This document shows positions 31,039-43,008 of a DNA stretch of 64,000 bases, piece after piece; within the stretch, counting starts at the first letter, position 1, and every line of letters begins with the position of its first letter. Both the position numbers and the translations under genes were made by a program. The DNA comes from Olleya sp. Bg11-27 (GTDB taxonomy: Bacteria; Bacteroidota; Bacteroidia; Flavobacteriales; Flavobacteriaceae): positions 3,487,001-3,551,000 of the forward strand of contig NZ_CP025117.1 in NCBI RefSeq assembly GCF_002831645.1, in the 5' to 3' direction. The notes under the pieces are model-generated. The model made no database searches. It was not told the origin of the DNA and saw nothing but the letters and a program-made list of their open reading frames with translations.

Positions 31039-32796
31039 TTAACTACTTCTTAAAACATGTATAGAGGCCAATACAGATCTAACAACACCACTGTTATCAG
31101 TGAAATCACCAGAAACAGTCACATCTATATAGTCTCCAACTGCTCCAAAATTAGTTAAATTGAATTGAAGTGTATTAGGTGCAGAATGATCAATATCTAT
31201 ACCTACTTCAAGAATAAAACTTGATGGTGAATTGGTTGTATATATTCCCGGTGTTATAGCCCCTCCCAATAATACAAAACTAGTAGTATTGGTTTGATGA
31301 CCAACACGAAAAGAAGTTCCCCCTGAATTTAGACTTCCACTAAGGTTAATTATATAATAATCCACAGGATCATTATCTATTTGCACACTAATGTATTCTG
31401 TAACCGCTGTACAAGCAATGATATTCCCCACATTTGTAACACTAGAGTTAAAAGGAAGCATTGTAGTTGTTTGAAACGTATCAAAATCTACACCTTCTAA
31501 AGTATAATCTGCCAAAGCTGAACACTCTAATATATTAAATGAAAAACTACCATTAGTAACTTCCACAGAAGAATAAGTACTACCATAATCTATAGCTATA
31601 TAGCCGTTAGTAACATTCGCGTTAGCACAATCTACTAGATTACCTGAAATATTTATTGCAGAAACAGTTGTCATAGCAATACTACCATAGTTAGTATCTA
31701 CAGAAAACGGTCCTATTGTAGTACTGTACGCCTCTATCCCACATTGATCAAATGCTTTTAATGTTAACGTTTCATTCGCTGGAATTAAGCCACAAATTTC
31801 ACCACTTCCATTAGAGAACCCTGTTCTAGGATAGATTGCACCACTTCTCCATAACTCGACACGCATATTAGAAAAAGGCACTCCAGAACCATCATCCATA
31901 GTCATACACAATGTTACTGTAGGAAACTGTGCATCGCAATTCCACCAAGAAAAATGAGACACTTCTCCAACATACTTACCACCTATTAACGTTGCTATTC
32001 CATCTTCTACCCAATACCCATTAACCTCATCAAAGTGCCATAATGGTATTGTTGCAGGAGCTACGCCTGTTTGTGCCGCATCTACAGGCATTTCAATATC
32101 AGCATAATGACCATCTGCTATATTTAATTCTTGACCAGCATCTCCTCTTAATTCTACATTTAACATACCATAAGATTCTAAGACACGTGCTTCTCCTACT
32201 TGATTTACCGCCTGTAAACTTCCTGGCATAATAATATTATTATCTGGATTTGATGGATCCAAATAATACATTTTAACGTCTACATTACCAGAATATGCAT
32301 TACCATTATCGTCTTTAAAACTTCCATCAAAGGTCACTTTTGCTCCATTTGGTAATACTACATCACTGACTGATCCAGACGAAATTGTAGCTATAACATT
32401 ATCTTGGACTAACATGATTTTAATCATATTAGTGCCTTGTGTTGGCACGACAGTTCTCATTCCTTTTAAATATCCTGATTTATCCGCAATGATATACGCT
32501 TGCTTCTCTTTTACACTGGCATTTTTGATAATAAACATCCCATTAGCATCTGTAGAGGCTATTTTTGCCCCAATACTAACCACTGTGTTTTCAATTGGTA
32601 AGTTGTTTTCATCTACAATACGTCCCATAAAATTGCTTTGGATAGTCGCTCCTAGATCAAGCTGGGAATTTCCAGAATTACCATCTGGAATAGTAGGCGT
32701 ATCTACTCCTTCGTTTGGATTACAAGATGTAAATACTGTTCCTAACACTACCATTAGGCTTAGTATGAGTTTGAAATTTTTGTTTAGCATATTCAT
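31039..32796 (-). CDS. Large carboxypeptidase-regulatory-like lipoprotein, copy A
   Basis: A 585-residue lipoprotein: leader ending in VFTSC (Cys25), a low-complexity Pro/Asp linker, a carboxypeptidase-regulatory-like beta domain at about 55-115 (GRIVDENNLPIENTVVSIG), a second beta domain with KVTFDGSF and YYLDPSNP, a module with HFSWWNCDAQFPTV near 280, and a C-terminal beta module ending IHVLRSS. It is a tandem paralog of the gene at 33046-34806: the N-terminal ~290 residues are almost identical, the C-terminal half is more diverged. Probably surface or periplasmic; binding partner unknown. The island promoter element lies at 32821-32853. Confidence 0.85.
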   Translation of the reverse strand: MNMLNKNFKLILSLMVVLGTVFTSCNPNEGVDTPTIPDGNSGNSQLDLGATIQSNFMGRIVDENNLPIENTVVSIGAKIASTDANGMFIIKNASVKEKQAYIIADKSGYLKGMRTVVPTQGTNMIKIMLVQDNVIATISSGSVSDVVLPNGAKVTFDGSFKDDNGNAYSGNVDVKMYYLDPSNPDNNIIMPGSLQAVNQVGEARVLESYGMLNVELRGDAGQELNIADGHYADIEMPVDAAQTGVAPATIPLWHFDEVNGYWVEDGIATLIGGKYVGEVSHFSWWNCDAQFPTVTLCMTMDDGSGVPFSNMRVELWRSGAIYPRTGFSNGSGEICGLIPANETLTLKAFDQCGIEAYSTTIGPFSVDTNYGSIAMTTVSAINISGNLVDCANANVTNGYIAIDYGSTYSSVEVTNGSFSFNILECSALADYTLEGVDFDTFQTTTMLPFNSSVTNVGNIIACTAVTEYISVQIDNDPVDYYIINLSGSLNSGGTSFRVGHQTNTTSFVLLGGAITPGIYTTNSPSSFILEVGIDIDHSAPNTLQFNLTNFGAVGDYIDVTVSGDFTDNSGVVRSVLASIHVLRSS

Positions 32797-32820: not shown

Positions 32821-32853
32821 CCTTATATAAACTTACCTATACTTTTGTTACCC
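32821..32853 (-). promoter_or_regulatory. Island promoter element, site A
   Basis: On the minus strand GGGTAAC (32853-32847), exactly 19 bases, then TATAAGG (32827-32821), followed by TGAAACA. The ATG at 32796 is 24 bases further. Same layout as sites B, C and D. Confidence 0.65.
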
Positions 32854-32901
32854 TGTTTTTAAAATTAGTTACTAATCAGTCAACTCTTATGTGCCAAATA
32901 C

Positions 32902-32922
32902 TATTATTATTATTATTATTAT
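32902..32922. repeat. Trinucleotide microsatellite (TAT)7
   Basis: Seven perfect TAT units lie upstream of site A in the 249-base gap between the two paralogs. This type of tract can change length by slippage; whether it affects transcription is unknown. Confidence 0.85.
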
Positions 32923-32987
32923 TGATAAACTTAGAAAACGATTAACTTTTATTAACTAAATTAAGCAAAGACTCGCTATTTGAAAAC

Positions 32988-33028
32988 AAAAAAAAAGAAG
33001 GTTCAAATTGAAACCTTCTTTTTTTTTA
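32988..33028 (-). terminator. Terminator after lipoprotein copy B
   Basis: AGAAGGTT (32996-33003) pairs with AACCTTCT (33012-33019); the A run at 32988-32996 is a U tract on the minus strand, suiting the gene ending at 33046. A T run to the right makes it potentially bidirectional. Confidence 0.8.
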
Positions 33029-33045
33029 AACATTGTTATATCTTT

Positions 33046-34806
33046 TTAAACCCCTCTTAATACGTGAATTGTTATTGACAAATCTCTAGAAACACCATTA
33101 TTATCAACAAATCCTCCTGTTATTACCATATCAATATACTCTCCAATAGCTCCAAAATTATTAAGCGTAAACTGTAATGTATCAGGCATTCCAAAATCCA
33201 TATTTATTCCTGTTTCTACATAGAAACTATTAGCGGATGATGCCGTGTACGTTCCAGGTACTATTGATTGACCAAAAACAACCAATCCATTACCAGTAGC
33301 TGTTTGATTACTAACATTAAACGACAATCCATCACTTCCTGTTCCTCCATTTAAATTGATTAAATAATAGTCTACAGGATCATTATCTATTTGAACAGTT
33401 ATAAACTCCGTGACTGCACTACACGCTATTAAGTTTCCAACATTAGGATTATCAAAACTAAATGGAAGTGCTGTTGTGACTTGCAAACTATCATAATTAA
33501 CACCTTCTAAAGTAAAATCAGATAAAGATGCACATTCTGTTACGTTAAACGTAAAACTACCATCAACAACGGTTACTGCAGAAAAAACACCGCCATAATT
33601 TACTGTCACGTAACCATTTGTGACATTTATATGATCACAATCTACTAAAGACCCCGTTATACTTGTTGAAGAAACCGTTGCCATAGTAATATCACCATAA
33701 TTAGTATCTGTAGAAAATGGCCCTATAGAACTTGTATAAACCACTACACCACATTGATCTAAAGCTTTTAACGTTAAAACTTCATTAGCTGGAATTAATC
33801 CACAAATCTCACCAAAGCCATTTGAAGATCCAACTCTAGGATATGTCGCACCACTTCTCCATAATTCAACATTTATATTAGAAAAAGGTATTCCTACACT
33901 ATCCACAATGGTCATACATAATGTTACTGTAGGAAACTGCGCATCACAATTCCACCAAGAAAAGTGAGACACTTCTCCAACATACTTACCGCCTATTAAC
34001 GTTGCTATTCCGTCTTCTACCCAATACCCATTAACCTCATCAAAGTGCCATAATGGTATTGTTGCTGGCGCCACTCCTGTTTGTGTCGGATCTACAGGCA
34101 TTTCAATATCAGCATAATGACCATCTGCTATGTTTAATTCTTGGCCAGCATCTCCTCTTAATTCTACATTTAACATACCATAAGATTCCAAAACACGTGC
34201 TTCTCCTTGTTCATTTACTGCTTGTAAACTTCCTGGCATAATGCTATTAATATCTGGATTTGACGGGTCCAAATAGTACATTTTAACAGCTACATTACCA
34301 GAATAAGCATTACCATTATCGTCTTTAAAGCTTCCATCAAAGGTCACTTTTGTTCCATTTGGTAATTGCACATCGCTTACTGCACCAGATGAAATTGTAG
34401 CAATAACATTATCTTGGATTAACATGATTTTAATCATATTAATCCCTTGCGTAGGTACTACGGTTCTCATCCCTCTTATATACCCAGATTTATCCGCTAT
34501 TATATACGCTTGTTTTTCTTTTACACTAGCATTTTTGATAATAAACATACCATTAGCATCTGTTGACGCTATTTTTGATCCAATACTAACGACTGTATTT
34601 TCAATAGCTAAATTGTTTTCATCTACAATGCGCCCCATAAAATCTCTCTGGATAGTCGCTCCTAAATCTAGTTGAGAACTACTTGGATTATCAACAGGCA
34701 CATCGGGCATATCAACATCTTCGTTTGGATTACATGATGTAAATACTGTTCCTAATACAACCATTAGGCTTAGTATGAGTTTGAAGTTTTTGTTTAGAGT
34801 ATTCAT
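33046..34806 (-). CDS. Large carboxypeptidase-regulatory-like lipoprotein, copy B
   Basis: A 586-residue lipoprotein, same architecture as copy A: leader ending VFTSC, acidic/proline linker, carboxypeptidase-regulatory-like domain, KVTFDGSF domain, the HFSWWNCDAQF block, then beta modules ending IHVLRGV. The first ~290 residues differ from copy A at few positions, while the last ~290 share only the framework, which suggests duplication followed by either gene conversion of the 5' half or selection on it. It lies just downstream of the LytTR regulator gene (84 bases from 34806 to 34891) and is preceded by site B. Confidence 0.85.
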   Translation of the reverse strand: MNTLNKNFKLILSLMVVLGTVFTSCNPNEDVDMPDVPVDNPSSSQLDLGATIQRDFMGRIVDENNLAIENTVVSIGSKIASTDANGMFIIKNASVKEKQAYIIADKSGYIRGMRTVVPTQGINMIKIMLIQDNVIATISSGAVSDVQLPNGTKVTFDGSFKDDNGNAYSGNVAVKMYYLDPSNPDINSIMPGSLQAVNEQGEARVLESYGMLNVELRGDAGQELNIADGHYADIEMPVDPTQTGVAPATIPLWHFDEVNGYWVEDGIATLIGGKYVGEVSHFSWWNCDAQFPTVTLCMTIVDSVGIPFSNINVELWRSGATYPRVGSSNGFGEICGLIPANEVLTLKALDQCGVVVYTSSIGPFSTDTNYGDITMATVSSTSITGSLVDCDHINVTNGYVTVNYGGVFSAVTVVDGSFTFNVTECASLSDFTLEGVNYDSLQVTTALPFSFDNPNVGNLIACSAVTEFITVQIDNDPVDYYLINLNGGTGSDGLSFNVSNQTATGNGLVVFGQSIVPGTYTASSANSFYVETGINMDFGMPDTLQFTLNNFGAIGEYIDMVITGGFVDNNGVSRDLSITIHVLRGV

Positions 34807-34843
34807 AATTTATAGTTTTAAGTGTTCAATATTAATTGTTCAA

Positions 34844-34876
34844 CCTTATATAAACTGGCTTATGATTTTGTTACCC
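34844..34876 (-). promoter_or_regulatory. Island promoter element, site B
   Basis: Minus strand GGGTAAC (34876-34870), 19 bases, TATAAGG (34850-34844), then TTGAACA. The ATG at 34806 is 37 bases further. Flanks also match site A (ACAAAA after GGGTA, and AGTTTATATAAGG). Confidence 0.65.
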
Positions 34877-34890
34877 TATTTTTTTAATCT

Positions 34891-35631
34891 TTATTTAAAT
34901 AACCCCAAAAAAGCCTTTTTATTGGTTTTAGAAATAGGCACACGATACTCATTATCTAAAACGACATAACCTTCATTTTCAAAATGTCTTACCTTTTCTA
35001 AATTAATAATATGTGATTTATGACACTTAAAGAATGTGGCGTTAAGTAACTTTTCAAATCGTCCTAGATTATAAGAACTGGTTATTGTTGTATCATTTAT
35101 TAAATGAATTTTAGTATACCCCTCATACCCTTCTAAATGCATCACTTCTTCCTGAGGAATAAAAGACATCCCCTTAGCTGTTGGCACTATAATTTTGTTA
35201 TTGTTAGATAGTGTACTAGATAATAAGTTTACCAATTTATGATTGCTATCTATGTCCACTTTTGTTTTTATAACTGAAATGGCTTTTTTTACCGCTACAA
35301 TTAAATCTGCATCATCAATGGGTTTTAACACATAATCTATTGCGTTTTGTTTAAAAGCCTCAATAGCGTACTCGCTATATGCTGTCACAAAAATAATTTG
35401 AAAATCAATAACGTTTAATTGCGCTAATAAATCAAACCCATTAATTCTAGGCATTTCAATATCTAAAAACACGATGTCTGGTTGATTGTTTTGCAATGCA
35501 CTTATAGCATCTTCTGGCTTCTGAAAGGTATTCAGAATAACAAGTTCTGGAAATAATTTCCCTATTTTTTGCTCTAAGCCTTTAAGGTTAGAAATTTCAT
35601 CATCAATTAATATAGCAGTAGGTGCGCTCAT
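34891..35631 (-). CDS. LytTR-family response regulator
   Basis: A 246-residue regulator: receiver domain at 1-125 with Asp10/Asp11 pocket (ILIDDE), phospho-acceptor Asp57 in FLDIEMP, Thr in VTAYSEYA and Lys in YVLKPID; LytTR DNA-binding domain at about 150-246 (KGMSFIPQEEVMHLEG, FFKCHKSHIINLEKV, VPISKTNKK). These bind pairs of 9-base direct repeats. It starts three bases after the sensor kinase stop, so both form one operon. Its gene lies directly upstream of the paired lipoproteins, which are candidates for its targets. Confidence 0.94.
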   Translation of the reverse strand: MSAPTAILIDDEISNLKGLEQKIGKLFPELVILNTFQKPEDAISALQNNQPDIVFLDIEMPRINGFDLLAQLNVIDFQIIFVTAYSEYAIEAFKQNAIDYVLKPIDDADLIVAVKKAISVIKTKVDIDSNHKLVNLLSSTLSNNNKIIVPTAKGMSFIPQEEVMHLEGYEGYTKIHLINDTTITSSYNLGRFEKLLNATFFKCHKSHIINLEKVRHFENEGYVVLDNEYRVPISKTNKKAFLGLFK

Positions 35632-35634
35632 AAA

Positions 35635-38481
35635 TTACAATTGGCTAATTATAAAGGTCGATATATTCCCTCTATCGTTTAATTCCGGATGGAGCTCTTC
35701 TTCAGAATAAGAAATATTCCATAATTCGGATTTATTTAAATATCGTATTCGGTCTTCCAGTACATTGGACGACTTGACTCTTTTAGTATTTCTTTTTTGA
35801 GTATTCATAAAACCAACACCATCATCGATAATCTTAACTTGGATCTTTTTATCTGATAAGGGCACAATACTAATACAAACTTTTCCATTATCTAACTTAT
35901 TAAAAATACCATGATTAATAGCATTTTCTACTATGGGTTGTAATAGCATCGTTGGTAGTTTTATTTGTTTACTGTTAATAGCGTCATCTATTTTAAAGAC
36001 ATACTCAAACTTATCTTTAAAACGCAGTTTTTCAATATCTAAATAGTTTTTAATTAATTTAATTTCTTCATTTAGACTGATTTCAGTTTGTTTTGACAAT
36101 TCAAAAAACTGGCGAATTAATTTAGAAAACTTAACCAGATAAGCTTCAGAAGCTTCAATCTCGTTATTATTAATATAATATTGTATGGCTGCCAAAGAGT
36201 TGAATACAAAATGAGGATTCATTTGAGACCGTAACGCTTTTAATTGAATTTCGGTTAACCTCTTTTCTTGCATCAACTGGCTATTTTTCTTCTCTTGACT
36301 CTGTTTACTAACTTTCCAAACAACATAAACGATGCTTGCGATAGCCAACACAGTCATTACTATCTTAACCCAAATATATTGCCACCATAACGGAGTAATT
36401 GAAAAATTTAGTTGCTTTTTTATCTTATTAGATTTAATATTAAGCGTGTAATCTCCAGGCATTACATTATTAAAACTAAAACTACTAGCACTAGCTAATA
36501 CCCAGTTTTTATTTATTGGTTCTAATTTATAACTGTAACTAAACCCCGTATCTAAATCAGAAAAATCGATATTAGAAACTATAAAATTAAGCGTGTTATT
36601 ATCTTGATATTTAAACTCGGAATGAGCTGTTGTTATCGCTTGGTTATTATAACTCGCTTTATCAATATAAATATCTAATAATTGAGATTGACAGGTTATA
36701 TTTTCAGGTAAAATAGCAATACCATAATTAGTACTAACCATCAACTTATCTTGATAAACCAATACATTACTAACGCTATTTGATGGCAGCCCGTTGTTTA
36801 TATTAATTTTTATCTGAAACTGATACCCCTCTTCTTTTTTTATATATTTTAAAACACCAGACTCCGTAGACAACCAAATGGTATTATCTTTTACATAAGC
36901 ATTATTCACAATTAAAAACTCCGATTGAGGTAACTGTTTAACAGTGTTTAAATCTGATATAAATGTTCCAAATCCATCTGTATTTAACAGTATTTGAGTA
37001 TCCGAAACTTTAGTTATACTCAGTATAGATTTATTAAACTCTTGGTTTGAAAAATTAATGGTTTCGCACGTTTCATTTTTCAATTGCTTTAACCCATTTG
37101 AGGATGCTATTAAAAGCTTATCGCCAAACGTCATAATTTGGTTTATTCCGCTTTGCGAATACTTTTTTTCTACTTTAAATGTTTTCGGGTTTATTTTATT
37201 AATCCCAAAGGAATATCGGCTATATAGGAACTTGTCTAAAGATACTATTTGACGCGCCTTATCATTGACTCCATAAATAGTATCTTCTAAATCAACATCT
37301 GTAATTACTTCCTTTTTTGAAACTTTTATATGTTTTTTAGATATATAAAATTCGGTATTTAACGCCTCTAAGTAAGAGGCACCATAAAGATAACTAGACT
37401 CTTGAATAAAAGGAACGAATTTATTTTTTGACGTCTCATATTTATAAAATCCTTTATTAAAAACATTAGCTATAATTTTATTATTTACACAGCTAATATT
37501 GGTGACACTCTCCTCTTCTAAACAGTATTTTATATTTTGTTTTTCTTTTGGCAAATGATAAATACCATTGGTAAACGTCGTTACCCAAATAGATCCTGAA
37601 GCATCAATAAAACCGAAATGCGCGTTTAACCGCTTTGGAATATAATATGTTTTTGTAATGTGCAAATCACTATCTAAAATGCCCACAAAACCTTGCCCTG
37701 AAATTTGAATTTGATTATTGACTAAATTCAATCTTACATGTTTAGACTGTGCAAGACCTATTTCTTCTTTAAAATTTCTTTTATATAATTTTAAAGTATT
37801 GAGATTAAAAATATTGTATTGTTTATCATTTACCCAGTAAAATAGACTGTCGGTAATTTGACCTCTCACATGGAGCTTATCAATAATACTATTAAAGTGA
37901 AATTTCTTAATTGTGTGATCATTTTTATCTTGAATAAAAACAGTATCCAATGCCACATTAGTTTTATAACCTAACACCGTTTTATGCTTGATATAACTAT
38001 TTGTTCCTAAACTTCCAATTTTATAATCTAATAAAACCTTCCATTTACCTTCTTTCAAAACATGAAACCTATTAGAACTTGTCAAAAACACGTCGTTACC
38101 AACCTGGCTTGAAAAAATAGGATTAAAAATTTCTCCTTTCAATTCACTTTCAAAAGCATAGACACTATCATTTTCAATATAACCTAATTTAGAAGCTTTG
38201 GATAAGTACCAAAGCCTGCCATCCGGTGTTGGATAGATTCCCCAAATATCATTATTAGATAACCCCTCTTTGGTCGTAAATGTTTTTATGGTATTCCCGT
38301 TATATTTCACCAAACCTTTATCCGTGGCTATCCATAAAAAACCTTTTTGATCCTGCGCCAATTTATAAACATGATTACTAGGTAAACCATCTTTAGTTGT
38401 ATAATTGGTAAATTGTTGCGCAAAAGAAAAACCCCATATCAAAAAGGATAATAATGTGATATGGTGTTTTTTATATTTCAA
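35635..38481 (-). CDS. Sensor histidine kinase with beta-propeller sensor (LytS-like kinase core)
   Basis: A 948-residue hybrid membrane sensor without a fused receiver. Signal peptide residues 1-21; a two-component-regulator propeller at about 25-600 (TKDGLPSNHVYKLAQDQKGFLWIAT in part; GLSNNDIWGI; NGLPSNSVSNV); a Y_Y_Y-type beta domain at about 620-695; one transmembrane helix at about 700-720; and a His_kinase core with NPHFVFNSL (His near 754) and the ATPase motifs PIVENAINHG and IDDGVGF. The start is TTG at 38481. Such propeller sensors in this phylum often sense glycans or cell-surface signals, but the ligand is unknown here. Confidence 0.93.
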   Translation of the reverse strand: MKYKKHHITLLSFLIWGFSFAQQFTNYTTKDGLPSNHVYKLAQDQKGFLWIATDKGLVKYNGNTIKTFTTKEGLSNNDIWGIYPTPDGRLWYLSKASKLGYIENDSVYAFESELKGEIFNPIFSSQVGNDVFLTSSNRFHVLKEGKWKVLLDYKIGSLGTNSYIKHKTVLGYKTNVALDTVFIQDKNDHTIKKFHFNSIIDKLHVRGQITDSLFYWVNDKQYNIFNLNTLKLYKRNFKEEIGLAQSKHVRLNLVNNQIQISGQGFVGILDSDLHITKTYYIPKRLNAHFGFIDASGSIWVTTFTNGIYHLPKEKQNIKYCLEEESVTNISCVNNKIIANVFNKGFYKYETSKNKFVPFIQESSYLYGASYLEALNTEFYISKKHIKVSKKEVITDVDLEDTIYGVNDKARQIVSLDKFLYSRYSFGINKINPKTFKVEKKYSQSGINQIMTFGDKLLIASSNGLKQLKNETCETINFSNQEFNKSILSITKVSDTQILLNTDGFGTFISDLNTVKQLPQSEFLIVNNAYVKDNTIWLSTESGVLKYIKKEEGYQFQIKININNGLPSNSVSNVLVYQDKLMVSTNYGIAILPENITCQSQLLDIYIDKASYNNQAITTAHSEFKYQDNNTLNFIVSNIDFSDLDTGFSYSYKLEPINKNWVLASASSFSFNNVMPGDYTLNIKSNKIKKQLNFSITPLWWQYIWVKIVMTVLAIASIVYVVWKVSKQSQEKKNSQLMQEKRLTEIQLKALRSQMNPHFVFNSLAAIQYYINNNEIEASEAYLVKFSKLIRQFFELSKQTEISLNEEIKLIKNYLDIEKLRFKDKFEYVFKIDDAINSKQIKLPTMLLQPIVENAINHGIFNKLDNGKVCISIVPLSDKKIQVKIIDDGVGFMNTQKRNTKRVKSSNVLEDRIRYLNKSELWNISYSEEELHPELNDRGNISTFIISQL

Positions 38482-38505
38482 TAGTATTTCGTTTAGTCGT
38501 TATGA

Positions 38506-38513
38506 CAAAAGTA
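38506..38513 (-). promoter_or_regulatory. -7 box upstream of the sensor kinase
   Basis: On the minus strand TACTTTTG matches TAnnTTTG, 24 bases before the TTG start at 38481. This suggests that the kinase/regulator pair uses the housekeeping sigma factor, unlike its lipoprotein neighbours. Confidence 0.5.
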
Positions 38514-38600
38514 ATGTTTTAAGCCTTTATTAATTTTTCTTAAAAGTAATACCCTGTTTAAAACCATTTTCTCTTAACTAATTATAAGCCTAAAAACTTA

Positions 38601-39734
38601 TTAATCGGTAGTTACACTGTTTCCGTTAGCGACTAATGTATTATAATCAGTAACTCCCTGACCTGTTGGCGGTGCCAAAGTTTGTTGGCCATCTAGCCTA
38701 ACACTCTTACCTGAAAAAGGTGGCGAAATTGCAACTAATTGACTTAAAACAGCATTAACATCTGAAGAGCTAAAATTATTACTTGGAAAATAGACTTGAC
38801 TAAATGAAGTTAAAGCAGGAAAGCTGATTGTTGTCAAGCTAGTATTATTGTACAAATTAAAAGAAGATGCTGCTGTTACTAATTGCGGTAAATTGATTGT
38901 TACCAACTGAGGATTAAGAGAAATTGTAAATTGAGTCACAGATACTAAAGATGACAAATCGACACTGGTCAATACGTCATTATTAAAAATACCCAAATTA
39001 CTATTTGTGCTTGTTAAATTAGACAAATCTAACGTTATTAAATTAGGATTATTATATACAACAACTGCATTACTAGTAGTAATACTACTTAAATCTAATG
39101 CTGTTAAATTTACATTATCTTCAAACTCTATACTATAGATATCGGTTAGATTACTTACTACTACATTATTCACATTACTATTACGCAGATAAAACTCATG
39201 AACATCTGAAAGTGCTGAAAAATCTACCTGTTGTAAAGACGTTGTATTTAAATCAGCACTTCCCTCGATATACAAATAATAGGATACTTTTTCTAAACTT
39301 GATAAATCTAAAGCGGATACTAATGGGTTATCACTAAACCTTATGTCCTGACTAACTTCTACTAAATTAGAGATATTTATAGTTGTTAAAGCTATATTGT
39401 CTTCAATAATCAAGTTTACCAACTGAGAAACACCTGACAAATCTAAAGTCGTCAGTTGTGTTGTATTTTCTACATAAATAAACTGTGTCATAGCTCCTAT
39501 TTCATTTTGAATTTTTACAACAGCCTCGGCATCTGTTATCCCTCCATTAAAATAAACATAAGTTAAACCAGAAGTTGCCTGACCATCTGTTCCATCGGTA
39601 CCATCGATGCCATCTTGACCATCCACTCCATCGACACCATCCTGACCGTCAACGCCATCAACACCATCGACTCCACAAGACATCGCTAAAATTAATACTA
39701 CACTACATAATAGTTGTTTAAAAATCATCTTCAT
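38601..39734 (-). CDS. Lipoprotein with collagen-like tract and leucine-rich repeats
   Basis: A 377-residue lipoprotein with leader ending LAMSC (Cys20). Directly after the lipidated Cys comes a G-x-D triplet tract (residues 21-52; GVDGVDGQD type), then receptor-L-domain-like leucine-rich repeats at about 75-320 with recurring xxLTTLDLSxL units (TTLDLSG, TTINISNL, SALDLSSL, LITLDLSNL, TSVDLSSLV), and a variable tail. It resembles BspA-like/L-domain surface proteins for protein or glycan binding. Start two bases after the preceding gene stop (39737), likely part of one operon running from site C. Confidence 0.85.
   Translation of the reverse strand: MKMIFKQLLCSVVLILAMSCGVDGVDGVDGQDGVDGVDGQDGIDGTDGTDGQATSGLTYVYFNGGITDAEAVVKIQNEIGAMTQFIYVENTTQLTTLDLSGVSQLVNLIIEDNIALTTINISNLVEVSQDIRFSDNPLVSALDLSSLEKVSYYLYIEGSADLNTTSLQQVDFSALSDVHEFYLRNSNVNNVVVSNLTDIYSIEFEDNVNLTALDLSSITTSNAVVVYNNPNLITLDLSNLTSTNSNLGIFNNDVLTSVDLSSLVSVTQFTISLNPQLVTINLPQLVTAASSFNLYNNTSLTTISFPALTSFSQVYFPSNNFSSSDVNAVLSQLVAISPPFSGKSVRLDGQQTLAPPTGQGVTDYNTLVANGNSVTTD
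39579..39674 (-). repeat. Collagen-like (Gly-x-Asp)n coding tract
   Basis: About ten triplets of Gly-x-Asp (x = Val, Gln, Ile, Thr) are coded by 9-base imperfect repeats (GGT GTT GAT type). Codons vary between units, so the tract is conserved at protein level and is not just a DNA microsatellite. Confidence 0.8.
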
Positions 39735-39736
39735 AA

Positions 39737-40045
39737 TTATTGTTCTTTATTTGCGTTATAAAAATCTAAAGCTTCAAAAAATGGAAAGCCAAAGAAAGGA
39801 CCTCCTTCTTTATACATGGTTATTTTTACACCATCCAAAAAATCACCAGAAAATTTAATATCATGGACATCTGCTTCCGTTAATTTCCTGTCGTGGAGTA
39901 AATAGTACTTTACTATTTCCATCTTTTTAACATCACTTAATTGTTTTGTCGTTTCTGTCGTCGCTTCATCTTTAGCAACTTGTTCTTTACAATTAAAAAC
40001 AAGCAAGCCAAGACAAAAGACCAAATACTTTAGTTGTGTTTTCAT
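39737..40045 (-). CDS. Small lipoprotein
   Basis: A 102-residue lipoprotein, leader ending LVFNC (Cys18). The mature part is Lys/Glu/Thr-rich, followed by LSDVKKMEIVKYYLLHDRKLTEADVHDIKF in part and a C-terminal GGPFFGFPFFEALDFY. Family unknown. The frame is open further upstream to 40069, but the ATG at 40045 gives the complete leader. It starts 11 bases after the preceding stop (40056) and ends three bases before the next gene. Confidence 0.7.
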   Translation of the reverse strand: MKTQLKYLVFCLGLLVFNCKEQVAKDEATTETTKQLSDVKKMEIVKYYLLHDRKLTEADVHDIKFSGDFLDGVKITMYKEGGPFFGFPFFEALDFYNANKEQ

Positions 40046-40055
40046 GTTTTTCAAT

Positions 40056-40502
40056 CTACAAGACTTCATCTATTATTACACAAAACTCCACTTCTATACT
40101 ACTATAAACAATATCTAATCGTATTTCGTCTCCTACAGCTGTTCCTGCACGTTGACAGGTCACGGTCACCTGCTGTTCTTGACCACTATCTAAGGTTAAA
40201 AACCCTATACCTGTCTCGTTAAGCTCATTTACATTAGTCGTGAAAAATATAGTTGGCGAGCTTGAAAATGAGGCGATTTCTATTCCTGGTGCGCCAAAAG
40301 GGCCATTACTTGCATTTGGAAAATATTGCGTATTCAATTCAGACTCTGCAATTATTGTTTGATCATTATTACTATTATCTAGGTAAGAAAACCCTTGATA
40401 ATTACATTCCGTTTCGTTTGTTGCATCATTATTGGTGTCATCATCATTATTACATGATGTAACAAGACATAATAAAACTAGTATATATGTTATTTTTTTC
40501 AT
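40056..40502 (-). CDS. Small lipoprotein, paralog of the gene at 41507
   Basis: A 148-residue lipoprotein with leader ending LVTSC (Cys17) and an Asn/Asp-rich linker (NNDDDTNNDAT). The mature domain aligns with that of 41507-41962: CNYQGFSYLDNSNN against CDYEGYDALDTSNN, ELNTQYFPNASNGP against ELTTDFFYTSSNGP, and the same end EFCVIIDE / EFCVKIDE. Conserved Cys residues (CNY, TVTC, FCV) could form disulfides. Function unknown. Member of the operon from site C, 59 bases after the gene at 40562. Confidence 0.75.
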   Translation of the reverse strand: MKKITYILVLLCLVTSCNNDDDTNNDATNETECNYQGFSYLDNSNNDQTIIAESELNTQYFPNASNGPFGAPGIEIASFSSSPTIFFTTNVNELNETGIGFLTLDSGQEQQVTVTCQRAGTAVGDEIRLDIVYSSIEVEFCVIIDEVL

Positions 40503-40561
40503 CTTTATAAATTTTTATAATTTTCAATATTACTTTTTTAGGTTAAAAAAACGATTTAAGG

Positions 40562-41242
40562 TTAATCTAACATTAATCCTAAAGTCCCTTCATAATGACC
40601 TGTAATCGTTGTTCCGCTTGTATCTAAAAAAGTATAATCTAAATCAATCGTACTATTTGAAGGTGTTGAATAATCTATATTAATGGCATTTATGATTACC
40701 ATTGGTCCAGATGTTCCAACATAAGACCAAATACCATTAGCTTCTTGTATATGACAAAAATCAAGTCCATTTTCTGTTCCAAAAGTAGGATCCGGTTCTA
40801 AATCATACCCTAATAAAGAATCTGCTGAATACCCTGCATTAAATCCGCTTGTTAATACACTAGATGCGATATAAGTATTTCCTGAACTAATGACTCCTGA
40901 TGTTAAACTTGGATTAGAAGCGCCTGCTAATATTTTTAACTTTACCATATTGGTTGTGTTATCTGAAAAGCCATAAGCATAACCAATACCTACATCTCCA
41001 AAAGAATCTGTCATCCTACCATCTGTAAAGAAAAAATTATAATAATCTGGAAAAGTATCTCCATTGGCATCTGCTTGATCAATGGTAATGTAAGCATTCT
41101 CCGTTCCGTTAAACGTACCGCTAATTGTAAAACCATCTGTTGGTGTAGCTGGAGTTGTTTGCGCGTCGTCATTATTATCACAACCAACTAGCGTTATGGT
41201 TAATAAGATTAATAATACTTTAAGTGTTTTTAATGTTTTCAT
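40562..41242 (-). CDS. Lipoprotein of unknown family
   Basis: A 226-residue lipoprotein with leader ending TLVGC (Cys21), Asp/Asn/Thr-Pro linker, then one beta-rich domain (DGFTISGTFNGTENAYITID in part; MVKLKILAGASNP; IWSYVGTSGPMVIINA; GHYEGTLGLMLD). Looks like a small jelly-roll or lipocalin-like surface domain, but I do not recognise the family. It is the first gene after site C at 41267-41299 and heads the run of lipoprotein genes down to 38601. Confidence 0.75.
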   Translation of the reverse strand: MKTLKTLKVLLILLTITLVGCDNNDDAQTTPATPTDGFTISGTFNGTENAYITIDQADANGDTFPDYYNFFFTDGRMTDSFGDVGIGYAYGFSDNTTNMVKLKILAGASNPSLTSGVISSGNTYIASSVLTSGFNAGYSADSLLGYDLEPDPTFGTENGLDFCHIQEANGIWSYVGTSGPMVIINAINIDYSTPSNSTIDLDYTFLDTSGTTITGHYEGTLGLMLD

Positions 41243-41266
41243 AATTAAATTATTTTAAGTGTTCAT

Positions 41267-41299
41267 CCTTATATCAATAAGCGTATAAAAATGTTACCC
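41267..41299 (-). promoter_or_regulatory. Island promoter element, site C
   Basis: Minus strand GGGTAAC (41299-41293), 19 bases, TATAAGG (41273-41267), then ATGAACA. The ATG at 41242 is 24 bases further. The middle of the spacer differs from A and B, so the two boxes and their distance are the conserved part. Confidence 0.6.
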
Positions 41300-41313
41300 T
41301 AAATTTAAAGTTA

Positions 41314-41475
41314 TTATGTATCTTTTCTCACATGGATAGTCCCTGTAATAAACTTTGTAACTCCTGCGCTATCTGTAAAATCACCAGAAAAAGCAACGTC
41401 AATATACTCTGTTTGATTTCCAAAATTTGATATTATAAATTCAAAAATTCTGTGTCGTTGTAATAGTTGTAATTA
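41314..41475 (-). pseudogene. Decayed C-terminal fragment of the large lipoprotein family
   Basis: The minus strand from 41451 to the stop at 41316-41314 reads 45 codons (NFGNQTEYIDVAFSGDFTD, ending GTIHVRKDT) that align with the last module of copy A (NFGAVGDYIDVTVSGDFTD, ending ASIHVLRSS), 19 of 41 positions identical. Upstream, two stop codons and apparent frameshifts interrupt the frame within 25 bases, and no N-terminal part remains. So this is the remnant of a third family copy, placed just before site C in the same way that copy B lies just before site A. Confidence 0.75.
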
Positions 41476-41506
41476 CTACTTAAGCTTGGTTTCGAAGGTC
41501 TTATCA

Positions 41507-41962
41507 TTAATGATATTCATCAATCTTTACACAAAACTCGGCATCCAATCCAGAACCTGTCACTATAAATTGCATTCCTTCACCAACTGCACTTCCTGTT
41601 GCTAAACACGTTACATTTACAGTTTGTATAACACCATCAATACTTAATTGACCTGTTCCAGCAGCGTTTGCAGTAACAACTGTGGTAACAAACCAAAAAT
41701 CGCCAGGATTACTAGTTTCATAAATTTCCACTTCAGGCCCATTCGATGACGTATAGAAAAAATCTGTAGTTAATTCTGCTTCAGGTATTAAAGTCGTCGT
41801 ATTGTTTGACGTATCTAAAGCATCGTAACCTTCATAATCACATGCTGAAGTTTCTGGTTCATCGTCTATCCCGTCATCCGCAGGACATCCAGAACCAATT
41901 ATAAATAACGCTACTACCAATAATGTAATTGGGGAAATTGCTTTTAAAATCTTCTTTTTCAT
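41507..41962 (-). CDS. Small lipoprotein-like protein, paralog of the gene at 40056
   Basis: A 151-residue exported protein. The N-terminal hydrophobic stretch at about 10-25 ends GSGC (Cys26), likely lipidated. An acidic linker follows, then the domain shared with 40056-40502 (see that entry), ending EFCVKIDEYH. Starts four bases after the Lgt-like stop (41967), so it is cotranscribed with it: a lipid-transfer-like enzyme and a lipoprotein in one operon. Confidence 0.72.
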   Translation of the reverse strand: MKKKILKAISPITLLVVALFIIGSGCPADDGIDDEPETSACDYEGYDALDTSNNTTTLIPEAELTTDFFYTSSNGPEVEIYETSNPGDFWFVTTVVTANAAGTGQLSIDGVIQTVNVTCLATGSAVGEGMQFIVTGSGLDAEFCVKIDEYH

Positions 41963-41966
41963 TGTA

Positions 41967-42767
41967 TTAGGTTTTAATTAAGTTAATATTACTTTGTTTA
42001 TAAAATTTAAAATAAAAATAGCTCGAAGCACAAATAAGACACAATCCAATAGCCTGAGAATGTGATAATATATTTTCAACTACATAACCTCTTTCATCTC
42101 CTCTAAACAGCTCTAAAATCCCTCGACCAAAACCATACAATATTAAGTATGCTAAAAATATTTGCCCTGTAAATTGCTTTCGGTTTTTAATAAATAGAAG
42201 TATCAATAGTATTATCATTAAGACGGTCACTTCATACAATTGCGTAGGATGAACGGCTACATCATGCGTGGTTGGGAAAACTATCCCAAAACCACTATTC
42301 GTTGGATGTCCAAAACAACAACCCGCTGCAAAACAACCTAAACGTCCTATGGCATGAATTATAACTGTAGTTACTGCTAAAATATCTAACATTGGTAATA
42401 CAGGTATTTTGTGCTTTTTTAAATACCAAATAACAACTGGAACAATAACTATAAACGAGCCATAAAAGACATAACCACCATTAAAGCTGCTTAAAATTAA
42501 ACTTGGATTATTAATATACAACATGGGATCTTGCAGATAAAAAAACAACTTACCGCCTACAAAGCCTGCAATAAAAACCAAGTAAAAAAAAGTGTTTGAT
42601 AAATTAGTAATCCCTAATGTTTTTTTAGCACTCCATTTAGTATATAACGCCGCTATTAAAGTCCCTAGCGCTATTAAAGTAGCATAACTATATACGGTAA
42701 CTTGTGTCAAACCAAAAAGACGAGAAAAAAATTCAGGTAACGAAAAATCAAATAGCTCTGGAAACAT
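41967..42767 (-). CDS. Lgt-family membrane protein (divergent prolipoprotein diacylglyceryl transferase)
   Basis: A 266-residue polytopic protein with about seven transmembrane helices. It keeps family landmarks: GGYVFYGSF (97-105), IGRLGCFAAGCCFGHPTN (140-157), HPTQLYE (173-179) and FRGDERG (about 225-231). Compared with E. coli Lgt, the essential His of the GGxxFHG loop is Tyr102 and the Asn of GRLGNF is Cys145, with an added Cys-Cys pair at 150-151. It belongs to the CC-type Lgt subfamily, so true Lgt activity is uncertain. Context is striking: it lies in a lipoprotein island and shares a transcript with one lipoprotein. Confidence 0.85.
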   Translation of the reverse strand: MFPELFDFSLPEFFSRLFGLTQVTVYSYATLIALGTLIAALYTKWSAKKTLGITNLSNTFFYLVFIAGFVGGKLFFYLQDPMLYINNPSLILSSFNGGYVFYGSFIVIVPVVIWYLKKHKIPVLPMLDILAVTTVIIHAIGRLGCFAAGCCFGHPTNSGFGIVFPTTHDVAVHPTQLYEVTVLMIILLILLFIKNRKQFTGQIFLAYLILYGFGRGILELFRGDERGYVVENILSHSQAIGLCLICASSYFYFKFYKQSNINLIKT

Positions 42768-42787
42768 GTTTTATGTTTTTTTTTAAA

Positions 42788-42831
42788 ATAAATCGGCAAT
42801 ACATGTTATTACTAACTTATTGCCGATTTAT
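42788..42831. promoter_or_regulatory. 14-bp perfect inverted repeat before the Lgt-like gene
   Basis: ATAAATCGGCAATA (42788-42801) and its exact complement (42818-42831) enclose a 16-base loop, ending 20 bases from the ATG at 42767. It is in the leader if site D is used. It could be an attenuator-type hairpin or an operator; only a weak U-rich stretch (ATTTATTTT) follows on the minus strand. Confidence 0.7.
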
Positions 42832-42892
42832 ATAGAAAGATTAATAGCAAATCAAAAATAACATACAACCTCTAGCAAATACCTTACTATTG

Positions 42893-42932
42893 CATGACAC
42901 GTTAGTTTCATGTCATGAAAAGTGGTTTTCAT
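42893..42932. promoter_or_regulatory. Two overlapping hairpins in the leader of the Lgt-like gene
   Basis: CATGACA (42893-42899) pairs with TGTCATG (42911-42917); ATGAAAA (42915-42921) pairs with TTTTCAT (42926-42932). The arms share 42915-42917, so the hairpins exclude one another. The rest of the 404-base gap 42768-43170 has no gene that I can support. Confidence 0.45.
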
Positions 42933-42975
42933 TAAATCAACTATACCACTTGAACTGTTAATTATTGGTCTACGT

Positions 42976-43008
42976 TTTTATATAAAAACAACCTTTGTTT
43001 TGTTACCC
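42976..43008 (-). promoter_or_regulatory. Island promoter element, site D
   Basis: Minus strand GGGTAAC (43008-43002; preceded by another G), 19 bases, TATAAAA (42982-42976). Upper box and spacing equal sites A-C; the lower box has AA in place of GG. The Lgt-like gene starts 209 bases further, giving a long leader. Confidence 0.5.

Follow-up and report, generated by a model that had tools for sequence, protein, structure and literature searches.

The question raised by this locus is what reads four copies of a bipartite element that stand upstream of lipoprotein operons in a 64,000-nucleotide stretch of the Olleya sp. Bg11-27 genome (Flavobacteriaceae; assembly GCF_002831645.1, contig NZ_CP025117.1, positions 3,487,001 to 3,551,000; hereafter the window). 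An initial annotation had proposed that these elements are promoters of the type used by extracytoplasmic function (ECF) sigma factors. The results support this core claim, and co-occurrence across genomes ties the element to one sigma factor. From sequence comparison, each element is very probably the –35/–10 promoter of a single ECF sigma factor of 193 amino acids (aa), encoded outside the window at G000:1247230-1247808.

The pattern GGGTAAC-N19-TATAARR (N, any base; R, purine) has exactly four matches in the window, all on the minus strand, and none in 100 dinucleotide shuffles. The sites lie at 32821..32853 (element 1, GGGTAACA / TTTATATAAGG), 34844..34876 (element 2), 41267..41299 (element 3, the TTGATATAAGG form) and 42976..43008 (element 4, TTTATATAAAA), which confirms the positions, the strand and the spacing first annotated. 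The second box is TATAAGG in three elements and TATAAAA in one, and the gap is exactly 19 bp in all. Three of the elements had been placed 24–37 bases before the ATG of a lipoprotein gene; the distances are indeed 24, 37 and 24 bases, and the corresponding products carry the lipoboxes FTSC, FTSC and LVGC. The fourth element had been assigned to the leader of an operon with an Lgt-like gene and a lipoprotein gene, and is found 208 bases before an Lgt-family gene that is followed by a probable lipoprotein gene. Since elements 1 and 2 precede tandem paralogues, the four sites are not fully independent.

Searching the whole genome (4.31 Mb, one contig) for GGGTAAC-N19-TATAA, as had been suggested, showed that the exact pattern is rare, with seven sites and none in the reversed control. 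An open reading frame (ORF) follows each site, beginning 26–210 bases past TATAA, and a lipobox is present in four of the seven first ORFs. The three copies outside the window precede an outer-membrane-protein-like gene (L001; called OmpA-like by eye), a lipoprotein gene (L002) and the gene of a 70-aa peptide whose leader is of the double-glycine type (L003). The L002 copy sits 44 bases upstream of the 193-aa sigma gene and is oriented away from it; one of the seven genomic copies thus abuts an ECF sigma gene, a proximity that, according to the annotation, would support its proposal. Ten genomes of the genus gave 42 exact matches, as compared to 1 in the reversed control. When two mismatches were permitted in the boxes, the Olleya genome gave 135 matches as compared to 177 in the reversed control, so that only near-exact sites can be trusted. 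With a longer consensus and three mismatches, seven matches were obtained versus one in the control; of these, six were already known and one (L037) was left out of the counts. When the gap was left variable across 149 genomes, most rows gave at least as many matches in the reversed control, showing that background swamps the signal.

Base conservation was evaluated on 48 non-redundant sites (less than 60% identity over 110 bp) out of 245, a few of them being chance matches. Conservation in these sites extends to positions left free by the search, namely T23 (90%), T24 (83%), A31 (85%), T35 (85%), R36 (96%) and also A38. A8 and G/T25 are conserved too, but they were forced by the search in the loci drawn from the family genome scan. 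The consensus is GGGTAACAA-N13-TTKATATAARGNTR. With the purine R36 as +1, GGGTAAC would span –35 to –29 and TATAA would span –9 to –5. The conserved T35-R36 pair leads to a predicted start at about 32818 for element 1; for elements 2, 3 and 4, starts are predicted at about 34841, 41264 and 42973, respectively.

The arrangement seen at L002 recurs beside the sigma genes of relatives. The sigma loci considered were the best 80 of 153 relatives; the 26 relatives that were aligned share 68–92% identity with the Olleya sigma. Within the upstream stretch that was fetched, 74 of the 80 loci contain the exact element, always on the divergent strand. Using a looser pattern, which tolerates a changed base in any of three places (the first G, the base preceding ATATA, or TATA itself), the element is found upstream in 79 of the 80 loci, and within 150 bp of the sigma start in 67. 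Measured to KATATA (K, G or T), 139 cases have a spacing of 17, and four have any other gap between 5 and 40. In a sample taken at the level of the order, the sigma is present in 20 of 296 genomes, with a patchy distribution. Of these 20 loci, that of Olleya included, 16 carry the exact element within 1.5 kb, and 18 do so if A is accepted at the first G. The element remains near the sigma gene down to 53–54% sigma identity, and is also found there in one genome of another family.

We then considered the presence of the element irrespective of its proximity to the sigma gene. A family sample of 149 genomes, one per genus, was used, and a clear orthologue was defined by an identity of at least 53%. 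Such an orthologue is present in 19 genera, and GGGTAACA-N16-KATATA is found in 18 of these 19. Among the 130 genomes without a clear sigma, of which three have only relatives at 31–34% identity, six contain the element; the reversed control matched in 6 of the 149 genomes. For this association, Fisher p is 3e-17, a statistic that ignores shared ancestry. As a check against shared ancestry, species of the genus g128 were compared, taking all 15 sigma-bearing species and the six sigma-less ones among those listed. Of the 15, 14 have the element, as compared to none of the six (p 1e-4). Over all 35 genomes of that search, it is present in 18 of 19 with the sigma versus 1 of 16 without, the reversed control matching in 2 of 35.

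Some species have lost region 4 of the sigma, the part of a sigma factor that reads the –35 box. In two g128 species (L226 and L227), the frame runs from sigma region 2 directly into the downstream partner gene (from base 1498) and region 4 is lost; the neighbouring element reads AGGTAACC in one of them and is absent in the other. These two, G309 and G362, belong to the 15 g128 species counted above as having the sigma, and G309 retains an exact element elsewhere in its genome. Because L226 and L227 are alike, probably reflecting one event, the coincidence of region 4 loss with a change in the element is only suggestive.

The protein itself has the features of an ECF sigma factor. It matches the sigma70-ECF model TIGR02937 with 52.4 bits for a curated cut-off of 42.9, over residues 25–180, region 4 included, and Pfam Sigma70_r2 (PF04542) with 25.6 bits for a cut-off of 24. 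In the AlphaFold model, two helical parts (8–94 and 112–192) are seen with a low-confidence linker at 97–119. Two domains within 193 aa fit the architecture of an ECF sigma factor devoid of regions 1.1 and 3. The best fold matches in the PDB are largely ECF sigma factors (M. tuberculosis SigL and SigH, AlgU, BldN and E. coli sigma-E), with poor whole-chain superposition (template modelling score to the query of at most 0.43 among the matches listed). A weak local match was obtained with the structure of a –35-binding domain (3hug chain K; root-mean-square deviation of 1.2 over 61 columns, E 0.72). The stretch YAYARKKKS, which we take as the putative recognition helix, is invariant in 27 sigma homologues.

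Several observations weigh against the assignment of the element to this sigma. The sigma gene is distant from the window in the same genome. Pfam recognises region 2 only, the mean model confidence is modest (AlphaFold pLDDT, predicted local distance difference test, of 67.6) and 2 of the 151 fold matches reach an E-value of 0.001. The neighbouring gene product, considered below as a candidate anti-sigma factor, has no significant match to an anti-sigma family (best E 0.11). As for the distribution, one genome of the family sample (G096) has the sigma and lacks the exact element, L079 has no element upstream of the sigma even with the looser pattern, L224 and L227 have none within 1.5 kb of it, and G362, whose sigma is one of those without region 4, has no exact element in its genome. 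Conversely, of the six sigma-less genomes with the element, four look like chance, and the other two, G051 (88% complete) and G089 (82% complete), carry it before lipoproteins of the same families. Since the searches for the sigma scored no more than 22 candidates per genome in the family sample and 11 in the order sample, a sigma that appears absent may have been missed. On the strand of the sigma gene, no exact element was found in the 80 sigma loci; the sigma gene is therefore seemingly not autoregulated through the element, whereas many ECF sigma factors are autoregulated. Finally, the Olleya genome contains 23 Sigma70_r2 matches, and a second sigma could thus share the promoter.

This last point bears on another explanation, in which the element is indeed an ECF promoter but more than one ECF sigma factor uses it, or chiefly a different one, so that the neighbouring sigma is just one of its readers. 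Overlapping ECF regulons are discussed for Flavobacterium psychrophilum in a transcriptome study (PMC9723704), and the two genomes with real-looking elements in which no sigma was found go in the same direction. However, both exception genomes are incomplete, the Olleya genome contains a single match to the sigma at E ≤ 1e-20, and the presence of the element tracks this one sigma across genera as well as inside one genus. We therefore regard a reading by several sigma factors as quite unlikely. A non-regulatory origin, in which the copies are left over from a non-coding repeat that was duplicated or mobile, could be imagined from the two window copies that precede tandem paralogues. It is hardly credible, since spacers and flanks differ and the 48 sites below 60% identity over 110 bp still share the boxes and their spacing; the excess of exact matches over the reversed control within the genus argues in the same sense.

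Alternatively, the element might be bound by an activator of an otherwise ordinary promoter situated behind it, for example by the LytTR response regulator encoded nearby. The regulator and its kinase sit between two of the window elements. In L130, too, the lipoprotein homologue has a LytTR relative beside it, and the element-bearing loci L125 and L156 contain short kinase matches (105–146 aa). A role of the LytTR protein, which the initial annotation had put forward, did not withstand the comparison. Of 144 loci searched, two have a LytTR relative, namely L130 and the window itself (L005); the 80 sigma loci have none, though 79 of them carry the element. LytTR control is rejected, as the presence of the element does not follow the regulator. 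The annotation had also seen a loose LytTR half-site in AGTTTAT; this motif occurs in only two of the four window sites, and the 48 sites show no conservation at position 22, where it begins. The second box of the element resembles TATAA and stands at a single spacing, and no element is overlapped by the housekeeping motif TAnnTTTG (0 of 4), as the annotation had stated. One TAnnTTTG lies far down the leader of element 4, and a housekeeping promoter is rejected too. An activator site is thus very unlikely.

If the element is the promoter of the 193-aa sigma, its mode of action can be sketched. The sigma would recognise approximately the consensus given above, and transcription would probably begin at the purine located 5 bases past TATAA. 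An envelope signal would set the sigma free, and with it RNA polymerase would transcribe a small regulon encoding lipoproteins and other exported proteins, made of the four window units, the lipoprotein gene divergent from the sigma, the OmpA-like gene and the gene of the double-glycine-leader peptide. The candidate for holding the sigma is the second gene of its locus, found after the sigma in 76 of 79 loci; three loci have none by the ORF rule, and the 80th locus stands outside this count since its sigma ran off the contig end. The partner product is mostly of about 245 aa. A hydrophobic segment was found near residues 82–110 in all 10 proteins examined out of the 76, only the best segment per protein being scored, and a tetratricopeptide repeat (TPR) region lies behind it. 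Its position and layout suggest that the TPR partner acts as an anti-sigma factor. The element, its near-fixed spacing and conservation, its linkage to and co-occurrence with this sigma, and the genes that follow it are observed, and from these we infer transcription from the element, the anti-sigma role and topology of the partner, the signal and the purpose of the regulon.

Which genes lie behind the element was studied by clustering the first ORF after 206 distinct sites, drawn from the window, the sigma loci, the genus and family hits and the loose pattern. This yielded 200 ORF records, one site having no ORF and the rest being merged; most records come from sigma loci and are therefore not independent. 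The largest cluster is made of 79 lipoproteins of one family, with a lipobox in all (lipoboxes were counted with a simple pattern). It is followed by 62 small proteins of 138–178 aa without lipobox and by 16 proteins of a PKD family (DUF7619/DUF7849, as checked in one member), for which the element is 90–303 bases away. Smaller clusters contain seven small lipoproteins, five lipoproteins of the window type, four outer-membrane-protein-like products and two further sets of three lipoproteins. The remaining records form pairs or stand alone, lie inside the sigma gene or are due to chance; six ORFs inside the sigma gene and some behind chance matches were left out of the targets. Most targets are lipoproteins or small, probably exported proteins. 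The model of the sigma-locus lipoprotein (pLDDT 81.5) is mostly beta, and neither sequence nor fold gave a useful PDB match for it. The peptide gene of L003 (L003:1231-1443, minus strand) has a ComC match below the cut-off (E 0.048), and its product is a possible exported peptide of the regulon.

In the window, element 1 precedes a 585-aa lipoprotein gene (31039..32796, minus strand, as for all the window genes described here) and element 2 precedes that of its 586-aa tandem paralogue (33046..34806), the two products sharing 80.7% identity over 487 aa. The 585-aa protein has a CarboxypepD_reg match below the curated cut-off. Its residues 149–287 resemble the sigma-locus lipoprotein of the relative L039 (E 1e-4), pointing to a weakly shared domain, and its likeness to the sigma-locus lipoprotein of its own genome is weak (E 0.004). 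Lipoproteins of the window type (51–69% identity) with the element are found in two other species of the genus (L130 and L138) and in another genus (L169), where the element is kept at 51% identity. A LytTR regulator and a propeller-type kinase are encoded at 34891-38481; relatives of both are found beside the lipoprotein homologue of L130.

Element 3 precedes a 226-aa lipoprotein gene (40562..41242), relatives of which in L140 and L133 likewise have the element upstream. Behind element 4, the first gene is the Lgt-family one (41967..42767; PF01790, 173.9 bits) and the second encodes the 151-aa probable lipoprotein (41507..41962), so judged by eye, for which the Pfam search gave no family. The Lgt-family gene is one of three LGT-family matches in the genome, the others being at G000:661435-662115 and, with the best score, at 3963980-3964834. 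A hairpin with a 14-bp stem (42788..42831, minus strand) is located in the leader of element 4, immediately ahead of the ATG of the Lgt-like gene; its predicted folding energy is –19.2 kcal/mol (z –4.6), and it was not among the results of the terminator scan. Both element 4, in a GATATAA form, and the inverted repeat are kept in G154 (L132). The hairpin might serve as an attenuator, or mark where a short leader RNA ends.

Bacteroidota have many ECF sigma factors, few of them with a known promoter. Here, a sigma was matched to its candidate promoter by comparing sequences alone, and a candidate regulon can be listed in any genome bearing the sigma. Shared control is also suggested for lipoproteins that have no Pfam family above cut-off. 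The regulon is limited to a minority of flavobacteria. More broadly, it is possible rather than probable that one ECF sigma with a near-invariant promoter serves as a surface-lipoprotein switch in many genera of at least two families, with sets that vary by species. Such a switch would recruit operons that gain the element, one of them with its own Lgt paralogue, and would sense the envelope via a TPR anti-sigma factor while leaving its own gene uncontrolled. A text search of the literature found no title or abstract on this promoter; the motif predictions made in ECF classification were outside that search and may contain it. This kind of promoter is known; in the searchable literature, no description of the present member, of its proposed reader or of its regulon was apparent.

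A close parallel is given by ECF (group 4) sigma factors with class I anti-sigma factors, such as E. coli RpoE/RseA. In both cases, the sigma has two domains (193 aa here) and an adjacent gene encodes a product with a hydrophobic segment at the expected place. A –35 box bearing AAC, a feature of ECF bipartite promoters, is common to the RpoE/RseA type and to the present element. In contrast with RpoE/RseA, the –10 box is here KATATAA, the sigma gene has no element of its own and the partner contains TPRs. According to a study of class I anti-sigma factors (PMC7406223), one of these is nearby for only 6% of Bacteroidetes ECF sigma factors. A review (PMC8103513) states that the motifs targeted by ECF groups can be deduced, and mentions the non-autoregulated ones as a question on which work is under way. 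Among flavobacterial promoter motifs ascribed to ECF sigma factors, the element can be compared with motif SM6 of F. psychrophilum, which the transcriptome study attributes to the seven ECF sigma factors of that species, leaving open their individual shares (PMC9723704). As described there, the –10 box of SM6 is CGT and the genes behind it include those of the type IX secretion system and Band-7, whereas the element studied here has KATATAA at –10 and stands mostly before genes of lipoproteins and exported proteins. The PorXY-SigP system of Porphyromonas gingivalis (PMC4800418) is similar in that a Bacteroidota ECF sigma controls envelope functions, a likeness by description only; unlike the sigma proposed here, it acts jointly with a two-component system on the genes of type IX secretion.

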